The notes below the pieces were generated by a model, which saw nothing but the letters and a program-made list of their open reading frames with translations, made no database searches and was not told the origin of the DNA. The position numbers were made by a program, and so were the translations under genes. 64,000 bases of DNA, taken from Blastococcus tunisiensis (lineage in GTDB: Bacteria > Actinomycetota > Actinomycetes > Mycobacteriales > Geodermatophilaceae). Every line of letters starts with the position of its first letter. Position 1 is the first letter of the stretch. The stretch lies in NCBI RefSeq assembly GCF_900112815.1, contig NZ_FOND01000005.1, positions 186,001 to 250,000 on the forward strand, read 5' to 3'. Shown piece by piece: positions 2,662 to 10,941 of this stretch.

Positions 2662-2715
2662 GTGCCTAGCGCCTGCTTTCTCGACGGCTGCCCGCTCAGC
2701 CTCGTAATCGCCTAG
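2662..2715 (+). CDS. ilvB leader peptide (attenuator peptide)
   Basis: Short open frame reading VPSACFLDGCPLSLVIA then TAG. It ends in Leu-Val-Ile-Ala with a GTA valine codon, rare in this GC-rich DNA. It lies directly before a stable hairpin and a Rho-independent terminator upstream of ilvB, the layout of a branched-chain amino acid attenuator. Leader peptides with terminators have been predicted before ilvB in other Actinobacteria. The start could also be the in-frame GTG at 2656, adding Val-Arg; a weak CGAGG lies upstream of that. Confidence 0.7.
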   Translation: MPSACFLDGCPLSLVIA

Positions 2716-2741
2716 CGCGCCGGTCCTCCGACCGACGCGCT
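2714..2741 (+). promoter_or_regulatory. Attenuator hairpin overlapping the leader stop codon
   Basis: AGCGCGCCGGTC (2714-2725) pairs with GACCGACGCGCT (2730-2741), 11 of 12 pairs with one C-A mismatch, closing a CTCC loop. The 5' arm begins inside the TAG stop of the leader peptide, so a terminating ribosome would cover it. The loop sequence repeats part of the 5' arm of the following terminator, so it could compete for the terminator 3' arm. Confidence 0.6.
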
Positions 2742-2743
2742 GA

Positions 2744-2775
2744 CCCCTCCGTGCCTGTGGCACGAGGGGTTTTTT
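2744..2775 (+). terminator. Rho-independent attenuator terminator before ilvB
   Basis: CCCCTC-C-GTGCC (2744-2755) pairs with GGCACGAGGGG (2759-2769) around a TGT loop, with one bulged C, followed by six T (2770-2775). It lies 49 bases before the ilvB start and after the leader peptide, so it should stop transcription when branched-chain amino acids are plentiful. Confidence 0.85.
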
Positions 2776-2824
2776 GTTGCCCGGAGCTCGATCCACCCGC
2801 CTGCAAGCCAGGAGAAACGCCGAG

Positions 2825-4780
2825 ATGACCACCACCCCGAGCGAGCACGCCGCCCGCACCGGCCCCGGGGAGCCCGACTCCCGGGACCGCGTCTCCCAGG
2901 ACCGCGACTCCCAGGACCGCGATTCCCAGGACCGGGCCACCCGGGAGGCCGCGGCCTCCCTGACCGGCGTCGAGACCACCGCCCGGTCGATCGCCGAGGC
3001 CGCCGCCGAGCCGGTCACCGGCATCACCGGCGCGCAGAGCCTCGTCCGCTCGCTCGAGGCCGTCGGCGTCGAGGTCATCTTCGGCATCCCGGGCGGGGCG
3101 ATCCTGCCCGCGTACGACCCGCTGTTCGACAGCGCCGTCCGCCACGTCCTGGTCCGTCACGAGCAGGGTGCCGGGCACGCCGCCACGGGGTACGCCCAGG
3201 CGACCGGCAAGGTGGGCGTCTGCATGGCCACCTCCGGGCCGGGGGCCACCAACCTGGTGACGCCGCTGGCCGACGCGCACATGGACTCCGTGCCGATCGT
3301 CGCGATCACCGGGCAGGTCCCCAGCGCCGCGATCGGCACCGACGCCTTCCAGGAAGCCGACATCCGCGGCATCACGATGCCGGTGACCAAGCACAACTTC
3401 CTGGTCACCGACGCCGCCGAGATCCCGCAGCGGATCGCCGAGGCGTTCCACCTCGCCTCGACCGGCCGGCCGGGCCCCGTCCTGGTCGACATCCCGAAGG
3501 ACGTCCTCCAGGCCACCACCGACTTCGCCTGGCCGCCCCGGCTGGACCTGCCCGGCTACAAGCCGACCACCCGGCCGCACGGCAAGCAGGTGCGCGAGGC
3601 GGCGGCACTGATCGCCGGCGCGCGCCGGCCGGTCCTCTACGTGGGCGGCGGTGTGCTCAAGGCCGCCGCGACCGAGGAGCTGGCCGCGCTCGCCGCGCTC
3701 ACCGGCGCGCCGGTCATCACCACCCTGATGGCGCGCGGCGCCTTCCCCGACAGCCATCCGCAGAACCTCGGCATGCCGGGCATGCACGGCAACGTCACCG
3801 CGGTCACGGCGCTGCAGAAGTCCGACGTCATCGTCGCCCTCGGCGCGCGGTTCGACGACCGGGTCACCGGCAACCTCGCCAGCTTCGCGCCGCACGCGCA
3901 GGTCGTGCACGCCGACATCGACCCGGCCGAGATCGGCAAGAACCGCAAGGCCGACGTCCCGATCGTGGGCGACGCCAAGGAGACCATCGCGCAGCTGACC
4001 GAGGCGCTGCGCGCCGAGCACGAGGCCGGCCGGACCCCGGACCTCGCCGCCTGGTGGACCCAGCTCGACGACTGGCGCGCGCGCTACCCGCTCGGCTACG
4101 ACTGGCCCGAGGACGGCTCGCTGTCGCCGCAGTACGTCATCGAGCGGCTCGGTGCGATCGCCGGGCCGGACGCGATCTACGCCGCCGGCGTGGGCCAGCA
4201 CCAGATGTGGGCCGCGCAGTTCGTGAAGTACGAGAAGCCGGGCACCTGGCTCAACAGCGGCGGGCTGGGGACCATGGGCTACGCCGTCCCCGCCGCCATG
4301 GGCGCCAAGTACGGCCGCCCGGACACCACGGTGTGGGCCATCGACGGCGACGGCTGCTTCCAGATGACCAACCAGGAGCTGGCCACCTGCGCCATGGAGG
4401 GCATCCCGGTCAAGATCGCCGTCATCAACAACGGCAACCTCGGGATGGTCCGGCAGTGGCAGACCCTGTTCTACGAGGGCCGCTACTCCAACACCCGGCT
4501 GCACGCGCGCAACGCCGACGGCACGCCCAAGGCCGTGCGGATCCCCGACTTCGTCCTCCTGGCCGAGGCGCTGGGATGCGTGGGGCTGCGTTGCGAGTCC
4601 AAGGACGACGTGGACGCGGTGATCGAGAAGGCCATGGCGATCAACGACGCCCCCGTCGTCATCGACTTCGTCGTCGGCCACGACGCCCAGGTGTGGCCGA
4701 TGGTCGCCGCCGGCGCCAGCAACGACGACATCCTCGCCGCGCGCGACGTGCGGCCGGTCTTCGGCGAAGGGCAGGTCTGA
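2825..4780 (+). CDS. ilvB: Acetolactate synthase large subunit
   Basis: Catalytic subunit of acetohydroxyacid synthase (EC 2.2.1.6), 651 residues: condenses two pyruvates, or pyruvate with 2-oxobutyrate, in valine/leucine/isoleucine synthesis. The ThDP-activating glutamate lies in [10 protein letters not shown] (about residue 112) and the ThDP/Mg motif [12 protein letters not shown] starts near 508. AGGAGA at 2810-2815 selects ATG 2825; an in-frame ATG at 2774 lies just past the attenuator T run and is less likely. The first 60 residues are a hydrophilic extension containing a QDRDS repeat, absent from the compact family core. ilvN follows after two bases, and the leader/terminator upstream points to attenuation. 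Confidence 0.96.
2879..2938 (+). repeat. 15-bp tandem repeat inside the ilvB 5' region
   Basis: Four copies of a 15-base unit (TCCCAGGACCGCGAC and variants) lie head to tail at 2879-2938. The first and last are diverged. They encode the repeated QDRDS motif of the IlvB N-terminal extension. Because the unit is a multiple of three, copy-number change would not shift the frame. Confidence 0.85.
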
Positions 4781-4782
4781 TC

Positions 4783-5310
4783 ATGTCGCGCCACACCTTG
4801 TCCGTGCTGGTCGAGAACAAGTCCGGTGTCCTGGCCCGGGTCGCGGCGCTGTTCAGCCGCCGCGGGTTCAACATCGAGTCCCTCGCCGTCGGGCCGACGG
4901 AGAACCCCGACCTGTCCCGCATGACGATCGTGGTGGACGCCGACACCCAGCCGCTGGAGCAGATCACCAAGCAGCTGAACAAGCTGATCGAGATCATCAA
5001 GATCGTCGAGCTGGACTCCGCCGCCGCCGTCCAGCGGGAGCTGCTGCTGGTCAAGGTGCGCGCACCCATGGCCGAGCGCACCCAGGTGCTGCAGACCGCC
5101 GAGCTGTTCCGCGCCCGGGTGGTGGACGTCAACCCGGACACCGTCACCCTCGAGGCGACGGGGACACCCGACAAGCTCCAGGCGCTGCTGGCCGTCCTCG
5201 CCCCCCTGGGCATCAAGGAGATGGCGCAGTCCGGCACCGTCGCGCTGGGCCGGGGTCCGCGGTCGATGTCGGGCGCCGGTACCTTGCGCCCCGTCGAGCG
5301 CAGCGCCTAG
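4783..5310 (+). CDS. ilvN: Acetolactate synthase small (regulatory) subunit
   Basis: Regulatory partner of IlvB, 175 residues. It opens with an ACT domain ([31 protein letters not shown], quoted in two parts: [16 protein letters not shown] and [15 protein letters not shown]) that binds valine for feedback control, followed by the usual C-terminal ALS_ss domain (about 85-160). The ATG follows the ilvB stop by two bases, so the two subunits are almost certainly co-translated. Length is normal for the family. Confidence 0.95.
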
Positions 5311-5315
5311 TCAGA

Positions 5316-5373
5316 GGACCCCGTCGCCCCCCACGACGCGCTCCGCACGCCGTGGGACCCCTGCGACGGGGCC
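5316..5373 (+). repeat. Palindromic intergenic element, copy A
   Basis: GGACCCCGTCGC (5316-5327) pairs with GCGACGGGGCC (5363-5373) except for one extra A in the 5' arm; an inner CCCACG/CGTGGG stem lies between. It sits between ilvN and ilvC and belongs to the seven-member family described in the findings. It could weaken read-through from ilvN to ilvC. Confidence 0.8.
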
Positions 5374-10767: not shown

Positions 10768-10771
10768 CCCG

Positions 10772-10821
10772 CCGGCGGGGAGAGCGTGCCGGCACCCACG
10801 TCCGCGCGCTCTCCCCGCCGG
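10772..10821 (+). terminator. Terminator after leuB
   Basis: CCGGCGGGGAGAGCG (10772-10786) is perfectly complementary to CGCTCTCCCCGCCGG (10807-10821); the 20-base loop itself contains TGCCGGCA. No T run. It isolates cimA from leuB transcription and ends 19 bases before the cimA leader promoter. Confidence 0.75.
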
Positions 10822-10840
10822 CCGGGGTGCCGGTGCGTGG

Positions 10841-10846
10841 TTTACT
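10841..10846 (+). promoter_or_regulatory. -10 box of the cimA leader transcript
   Basis: TTTACT lies seven bases before the ATG of the Ile-rich leader peptide (10854), the spacing expected if transcription starts at the A of the start codon. No clear -35 is seen. Confidence 0.45.
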
Positions 10847-10853
10847 CGACGCG

Positions 10854-10886
10854 ATGCACACCAGCGGCACGATCATCATCGCCTAG
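10854..10886 (+). CDS. cimA leader peptide with three consecutive Ile codons
   Basis: Ten-residue open frame MHTSGTIIIA followed by TAG. Three ATC isoleucine codons lie immediately before the last sense codon. It stands between the leuB terminator and cimA, directly ahead of a perfect hairpin and a T-tailed terminator. This is what an isoleucine-sensing attenuator looks like, and CimA opens a route to isoleucine. The last codons and stop share ATCGCCTAGCGCGC with the ilvB leader. Confidence 0.8.
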   Translation: MHTSGTIIIA

Positions 10887-10913
10887 CGCGCAGTCACCTC
10901 CCCGACTGCGCGC
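10886..10913 (+). promoter_or_regulatory. Attenuator hairpin starting at the cimA leader stop codon
   Basis: GCGCGCAGTC (10886-10895) pairs perfectly with GACTGCGCGC (10904-10913) around the loop ACCTCCCC. The 5' arm starts at the last base of the TAG. The loop contains ACCTCCC, the same seven bases as in the 5' arm of the next terminator, so loop and arm can compete for the same G-run. Confidence 0.75.
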
Positions 10914-10914
10914 A

Positions 10915-10941
10915 GACCTCCCGTACCCGGGGGGTCTTTTT
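10915..10941 (+). terminator. Rho-independent attenuator terminator before cimA
   Basis: GACCTCCC (10915-10922) pairs with GGGGGGTC (10929-10936), including one G-T pair, followed by TTTTT (10937-10941). It lies 38 bases before cimA and after the leader peptide. Confidence 0.85.

Follow-up and report, generated by a model that had tools for sequence, protein, structure and literature searches.

Attenuation of ilvB is already known in Actinobacteria, and its mode was left unclear in 2005 (PMC1262725; this and the other papers cited here are drawn on in excerpt). In Mycobacterium tuberculosis, attenuation at ilvB1 requires the LVVI codons of the leader, and changing LVVI to AAAA abolishes induction (PMC13236596). 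In Corynebacterium glutamicum, a hairpin that meets the terminator base with a GCC overlap acts as an antiterminator (PMC11857589), and for Corynebacterium ilvB-II an antiterminator between the P1 loop and the right shoulder of the terminator was proposed, the tested mutant not addressing that pairing (PMC10272879). Here we analyzed two leaders, upstream of ilvB and of the citramalate synthase gene cimA, in a 64,000-nucleotide stretch of the Blastococcus tunisiensis genome (the window; contig NZ_FOND01000005.1, positions 186,001 to 250,000). Our reading, to which we give a little less than even weight, is that both leaders belong to one type of ribosome-mediated attenuator of transcription, spread across the actinobacterial class, in which a hairpin (P1) would act by abutting the terminator.

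The window carries, in one direction, ilvB (with ilvN and ilvC), serA, leuB and cimA. NCBIfam confirmed the acetolactate synthase large subunit (ilvB), citramalate synthase (cimA) and leuB directly before cimA, and ilvN, ilvC and serA were assigned by reading the open reading frames (ORFs). Both ilvB and cimA are preceded by a short upstream open reading frame (uORF) with Ile, Leu and Val codons, by P1 and by an intrinsic terminator, at the following positions (nt, nucleotides; bp, base pairs):

2662..2715, + strand: ilvB leader uORF (GTG...TAG), MPSACFLDGCPLSLVIA, with a Leu-Val-Ile run just before the stop; from sequence and reading frame, with frame and run conserved in relatives
2715..2740, + strand: ilvB P1, the candidate switch hairpin, GCGCGCCGGTC/CTCC/GACCGACGCGC, with base clamp GCGCG/CGCGC, a mid-stem C.A mismatch and a 4-nt loop at 2726-2729; from fold, alignment and covariation
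2742..2775, + strand: ilvB intrinsic terminator, 2742-2771 plus a U-tract (to 2775), 1 nt after P1
2825..4780, + strand: ilvB, acetolactate synthase large subunit, the putatively controlled gene
10841..10846, + strand: TTTACT, a -10-like element ~7 nt upstream of the cimA uORF start; from sequence
10854..10886, + strand: cimA leader uORF (ATG...TAG), MHTSGTIIIA, with three Ile codons; from sequence
10886..10913, + strand: cimA P1 hairpin, GCGCGCAGTC/ACCTCCCC/GACTGCGCGC, 10 bp, with the 8-nt loop ACCTCCCC at 10896-10903; from fold, alignment and covariation
10914..10941, + strand: cimA intrinsic terminator, 10914-10937 plus a U-tract (to 10941), 0 nt after P1
10980..12587, + strand: cimA, citramalate synthase, the putatively controlled gene (TIGR00977 at 606.6 bits, cut-off 450)

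In both leaders P1 starts at the G of the uORF stop codon TAG, and an earlier note on this DNA was right to place the hairpin start inside the stop codon. That note also had the two leaders ending alike. The 14-mer ATCGCCTAGCGCGC is exact at both, which are its only two exact places in the whole genome (six more carry one mismatch), but in relatives of the home family only its TAGCGCG is invariant, in the cimA and ilvB alignments alike, while the ATCGCC part, the last sense codons, varies. (Home genus, family, order and class are those of the window genome; the family is Geodermatophilaceae.) Predicted fold energies are -16.9 (ilvB) and -19.8 (cimA) kcal/mol for P1, and -21.6 and -17.5 kcal/mol for the respective terminators. 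Putative -10-like elements lie just upstream of both start codons, which suggests leaderless uORFs, and an element resembling TTTACT was seen by eye in many relatives.

The ilvB attenuators described from Corynebacterium, Mycobacterium and Streptomyces are like the present leaders in having a branched-chain amino acid (BCAA) uORF and a terminator, in the gene and in the sense of control (PMC1262725, PMC13236596). Named Streptomyces and mycobacterial relatives in our set show the same GCGCG/CGCGC hairpin before the terminator, whereas the one named Corynebacterium locus (L112) was not parsed, its hairpin overlapping the terminator by eye. The excerpted part of PMC1262725 describes no flush switch hairpin and no cimA, both of which are features here. 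Corynebacterium ilvB-II likewise has a uORF and P1 followed by a terminator (P2), but its uORF spans most of P1 (PMC10272879), whereas our P1 begins only at the stop codon and its loop pairing is unconserved. In the 'fast' attenuator of C. glutamicum ilvBNC, antiterminator and terminator also meet at one junction, with 3 nt (GCC) common to both there and normally none here (PMC11857589). No cimA or citramalate leader and no flush or non-overlapping antiterminator was found described in the open-licence literature, judged by title and start of abstract.

For cimA in the home family, 57 genomes were searched for the CimA protein and upstream regions were taken from 51 others with a strong match. 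Because these regions were chosen via the protein, the home-family cimA leaders are unselected by their own sequence. A leader was present at 48 of the 52 regions, the window included, and ilvB regions, located by tblastn, carried one at 42 of 42. Two near-complete home-family genomes (G022 and G030) had no strong CimA match. A further set of named ilvB loci consisted of the best 80 of at least 594 confirmed relatives, of which 76 were used (L082, L095, L106 and L118 were incomplete), and gave 51 parsed leaders, including ones from Streptomyces, mycobacteria, Actinomadura, Kribbella, Kineococcus and Arthrobacter. Altogether 187 of 216 upstream regions were parsed as leaders by a procedure that required P1 anchors of [GA]CG[CT][GA] type and a terminator hairpin with a T-run, and that left the gap between P1 and terminator unscored. 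The 29 unparsed regions comprise four at home-family cimA, with no leader by eye, and 25 named ilvB loci, several of which (such as L097-L099 and L113-L117) lack a terminator-like run, while L057 and L064 are clipped by the limits of the region taken and L112 has the overlap already mentioned.

Of the 187 leaders, 175 had an open frame with a called BCAA run, mostly of Ile codons at cimA. The first codon of the run usually lies 11-20 nt before P1, and the last Ile, Leu or Val codon begins 8 nt before P1 in most called frames of every group (home-family cimA 37/41, home-family ilvB 33/42, other-family cimA 23/39, named ilvB 39/48). The stop codon sits at -2 of P1 in all 83 home-family leaders with a called frame; among the 92 from outside the home family, 38 have it at -2, 47 at +10 or +13 and 7 elsewhere, which gives 121/175 and 47/175 overall. 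A ribosome spans enough RNA on either side of its decoding site that, from the positions of run and stop, one at the stop codon would cover the P1 5' arm in most leaders, as the earlier note had supposed, and one stalled early would leave the arm free. P1 itself has an outer span of 22-66 nt, and its 3' end lies 0-4 nt from the terminator in all 187 leaders (0 nt in 90, 1 in 69, 2 in 19, 3 in 8 and 4 in 1). Its base is exactly GCGCG/CGCGC in 177 of 187, a frequency partly built in by the anchors of the parser. A comparable flush hairpin occurs in 175 of 187 native leaders versus 696 of 3740 dinucleotide shuffles.

Alignment shows P1 to be a real RNA hairpin, conserved and covarying. The covariance model R1 of the cimA leader was built from 28 of 41 distinct home-family sequences (12 with shifted arms and L169 were excluded), and alignment to R1 of 99 matches, 80 from cimA and 19 from home-family ilvB, yielded 98 distinct leaders; two of the 82 sources (L255 and L259) were unmatched. 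Across these leaders 96.1% of cells pair, and in both helices together 171 cells are changed on both sides versus 50.8 in shuffles, a signal that sliding the partners destroys, although the alignment was fitted to the structure and the counts are biased towards it. Seven of ten P1 pairs show double changes among the 98 distinct sequences. The upper five pairs vary with compensation, while of the bottom five three are invariant and two show a single two-sided G-C to A-U exchange, in one sequence each. Within the home family P1 arms and terminators are nearly invariant, and uORF and P1 loops vary. Many home-family ilvB leaders have the mid-stem C.A mismatch (2720 and 2735 in the window) with an almost constant 3' arm, GACCGACGCGC, and others have U-A or A-U in its place. 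The single ribosome-linked architecture that the earlier note had proposed for both leaders is supported.

Covariance searches, a kind of check that the earlier note had suggested, found such leaders to be widespread. R1 matched 128 of 249 genomes of the home order (E <= 0.001). Forty matches outside the home family were fetched, of which 35 lie upstream of cimA and three upstream of ilvB by tblastn; the other two had no tblastn match in the kilobase examined and resemble ilvB leaders. CimA was found in 192 of the 249 genomes (E <= 1e-100), and we inspected 20 genomes with cimA and no R1 match there (19 without any match, and G195 with the ilvB leader only). In six of them a cimA leader with a P1-terminator gap of <=2 nt was present and had been missed by R1; in the other 14 no leader was visible by eye in the 300 nt upstream of cimA. 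The stretch before cimA in these 14 (L240-L252 and L254) usually contains, by eye, the end of an ORF resembling leuB, as if an operon arrangement replaced the private leader.

A broader ilvB leader model, R2, built from 34 sequences, matched 250 of 296 genomes of the home class (E <= 0.01). Its matches in the window's own genome were both leaders (E 3.3e-18 and 2.2e-8) plus two sites at chance level, and in 12 chosen genomes its additional matches include sites upstream of leuS, where all six downstream proteins tested carry the Pfam leucyl-tRNA synthetase editing domain. The leuS matches (L310, L311, L312, L316, L318 and L319) span several actinobacterial families, and in the five leaders viewed (all but that of L310) a uORF rich in leucine and a hairpin almost flush with a terminator can be made out by eye. 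The Streptomyces leuS attenuators also have a Leu uORF, hairpin and terminator and are termed classical in PMC1262725; the nearly flush look of the R2 leuS set is a judgement by eye. Two mid-locus, minus-strand matches (L308 and L309) place an Ile-rich uORF of the same design upstream of a small ORF resembling an ACT-domain protein. The L309 ORF gave a sub-cut-off match to Pfam ACT_4 (E 0.004), that of L308 had no Pfam match, and neither had an NCBIfam match.

A classical antiterminator captures the 5' arm of the terminator while the 3' arm is still to be transcribed. In our fold test each leader was cut before the terminator 3' arm and pairing of the 5' arm was computed, with four rows (L123, L126, L128 and L132) anchored by hand. 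The E. coli trpL control behaved as expected of such a device, its 5' arm being paired at 0.63 when the ribosome sat on the Trp codons, against 0.03 when it sat at the stop. In the actinobacterial leaders, group medians were 0.02-0.24 when P1 was exposed and 0.17-0.23 when another 8 nt upstream were exposed too, and even in the latter state trpL-like sequestering above 0.5 occurred in just 2 of 187 leaders (L072 and L223). The equilibrium terminator probability, stalled versus stop, was 0.95 and 0.96 for the trpL control, i.e. it did not discriminate. In these predicted folds P1 and terminator are compatible as secondary structures, so if P1 is an antiterminator, exclusion needs another cause.

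The cause that we infer is abutment. What the sequences show is how the leaders are built, spaced and conserved, that they covary, and that the predicted folds contain no nested antiterminator. The uORF would be translated from, probably, the extreme 5' end of the leader RNA. A ribosome that does not stall would proceed to the stop codon, which falls within the 5' arm of P1 or at its edge, and cover that arm; one stalled in the BCAA run would leave P1 to close. P1 would then be an antiterminator without base sharing, its GCGCG/CGCGC base flush (0-4 nt) against the first pair of the terminator. Closed in this position, P1 would prevent the terminator from zipping its last base pairs within the RNA exit channel of the polymerase: the 5' strand could leave the channel only through a single-stranded linker, and there is none. 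When the ribosome opens P1, its single-stranded 3' arm would serve as that linker and the terminator would work. The flush position, the alternating G/C clamp and the absence of overlap together point to this role for closed P1, and the clamp would be a stable one that cannot pair with the terminator's C- and G-runs. The direction of control, stall to antitermination, follows the M. tuberculosis ilvB1 and C. glutamicum work, and an antiterminator role for P1 would fit these studies of other actinobacteria (PMC13236596, PMC11857589). Where the earlier note saw a reversal of the usual logic, stalling with antitermination and a ribosome at the stop with termination is classical attenuation. That BCAA genes across the class (ilvB, cimA and leuS) carry a flush, non-overlapping antiterminator, with spacing and GC-alternating clamp as the switch, is a possibility that we advance tentatively and hold to be well short of probable.

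Several points weigh against this reading. Three named ilvB leaders have the stop codon at +34, past the P1 5' arm, and L072 and L223, which exceed 0.5 in the nested test, represent lineages with overlap. When P1 is covered, the folds predict upstream pairing of the first 4 nt of the terminator arm (group medians 0.42-0.84), which by itself would work against termination. Among GC-rich shuffles 19% contain a loose flush hairpin, the clamp owes part of its frequency to the parser, and training of the covariance models used flush leaders. The abutment is reasoned from general dimensions of the exit channel and ribosome footprint, and both leaders were characterized from sequence. In published systems, codon changes in Streptomyces coelicolor ilvB left regulation unaffected (as cited in PMC1262725), and the C. 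glutamicum hairpin does overlap its terminator, by GCC (PMC11857589).

The same geometry could be read in other ways. P1 might mainly serve pausing or timing, giving the ribosome a chance to catch up, with kinetic antitermination through faster escape from the U-tract or ribosome pushing. By the usual pause geometry P1 would set a hairpin-stabilized pause ~11-12 nt downstream, in the terminator loop and before the 3' arm, and the AAT hairpin of C. glutamicum has been proposed to act in pausing (PMC11857589). A pause hairpin, however, requires neither flush contact with the terminator nor a stop codon in its arm, and we regard this reading as unlikely. Somewhat less likely still is an antiterminator that shares bases after all, P1 extending a few pairs into the terminator 5' base by branch migration with an overlap too short for the fold test. 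L071 and L072 do extend P1 into AACC of the terminator base, and the published GCC overlap is of this type (PMC11857589), but the nucleotides before P1 rarely pair stably with the terminator arm (the medians of 0.17-0.23 and 2 of 187 above 0.5 given above, the window included), and most of them would lie under a stalled ribosome. P1 as a DNA operator for a repressor, an inverted repeat rather than an RNA element, is very improbable: its near-palindromic arms do lie just downstream of putative promoters, but we rejected it because the repeat span varies over 22-66 nt, the arms covary as base pairs and their position is tied to the uORF frame.

The earlier note had favored a pseudoknot, in which, with the ribosome stalled, the C-rich loop of P1 binds the G-run in the 3' arm of the terminator and so keeps the terminator from forming; a similar loop pairing is the one proposed for Corynebacterium (PMC10272879). 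Its observation that ACCTCCC is common to the cimA loop and the cimA terminator 5' arm is confirmed in the sequence, and in home-family cimA at least 5 contiguous loop/3' arm pairs (G-U allowed) are possible in 39 of 48 leaders, with loop interiors scoring -12.04 against the 3' arm versus -10.31 when shuffled (z -5.5; reversed-arm control z -1.3). Such complementarity showed no excess over shuffles in cimA of 11 other families (z -0.2), nor in home-family (z -1.6) or named ilvB (z +1.5). Swapped interiors paired with the 3' arm as well as native ones in all four groups, so even in home-family cimA the excess lacks pair specificity; the z values carry little weight in any case, because the rows are related and the reversed-arm control reaches z -3.6 in home-family ilvB. 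Leaders L155, L156, L160 and L161 combine GGGAGG arms with U-less loops, leaving a central mismatch. A CTCC-type loop is not a shared design either, since ilvB loops are short (3-7 nt in the home family, including CTGC, TGCC, GCC, GTC, CGAC and CACC) and variable, and only two of eight parsed same-genus ilvB leaders, the window included, have CTCC (the others have CTGC, CTGC, CTC, TGCC, CAC and CCC). Words of >=5 nt shared by loop and terminator 5' arm occur in 26/48 home-family cimA, 6/42 home-family ilvB, 3/41 other-family cimA and 1/51 named ilvB leaders; relatives at ilvB thus keep the terminator and stop-codon hairpin and lose the loop-arm identity, and the widespread leaders found by the covariance searches do not preserve it, an outcome that the earlier note had itself named as counting against its reading. 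We therefore rejected the decoy-loop pseudoknot as a general mechanism on the shuffled, swapped and reversed-arm comparisons and consider it improbable as the antiterminator, with room for it in home-family cimA. The LEU element, the actinobacterial leuA pseudoknot, shares with it the pseudoknot idea and a BCAA uORF, but its Leu codons pair with the Shine-Dalgarno box of leuA, which the base stem uses, and it has no described terminator, whereas the leaders here precede ilvB and cimA and have terminators (PMC1262725).

CTCC is nonetheless enriched in cimA P1 interiors, at 29/48 in the home family (9.4 expected) and 14/41 outside it (5.3 expected), against 10/42 (5.0 expected) in home-family and 6/51 (8.1 expected) in named ilvB. 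For this excess (10896-10903 in the window, and relatives) we found no convincing pairing partner, and the rows are related. P1 interiors compared with the 60 nt downstream of the terminator, the Shine-Dalgarno region, gave no enrichment for cimA (z +0.6 and +1.4), and ilvB gave z -1.2 and +1.9. A cimA-specific role of the CTCC loop is possible.

Outside the leaders, Rfam 15 covariance models searched against window positions 1-20000 (E <= 1) matched three tRNA genes only, and neither leader:

16721-16792: tRNA gene
16841-16913: tRNA gene
17203-17275: tRNA gene

The second and third are identical except at one position, and their starts are 362 nt apart.

Abutment of the terminator by P1 would make these attenuators differ from E. 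coli trp in a way that can be stated simply: the design predicts expression without uORF translation. If true, abutment would give many actinobacterial attenuators, of a mode called unclear in 2005 (PMC1262725), the antiterminator they have lacked and would extend attenuation control to citramalate synthase. It would also provide a simple rule, that a helix closed within a few nucleotides of the terminator base disables the terminator, which would affect the prediction of attenuators and riboswitch platforms, usually sought via shared bases.

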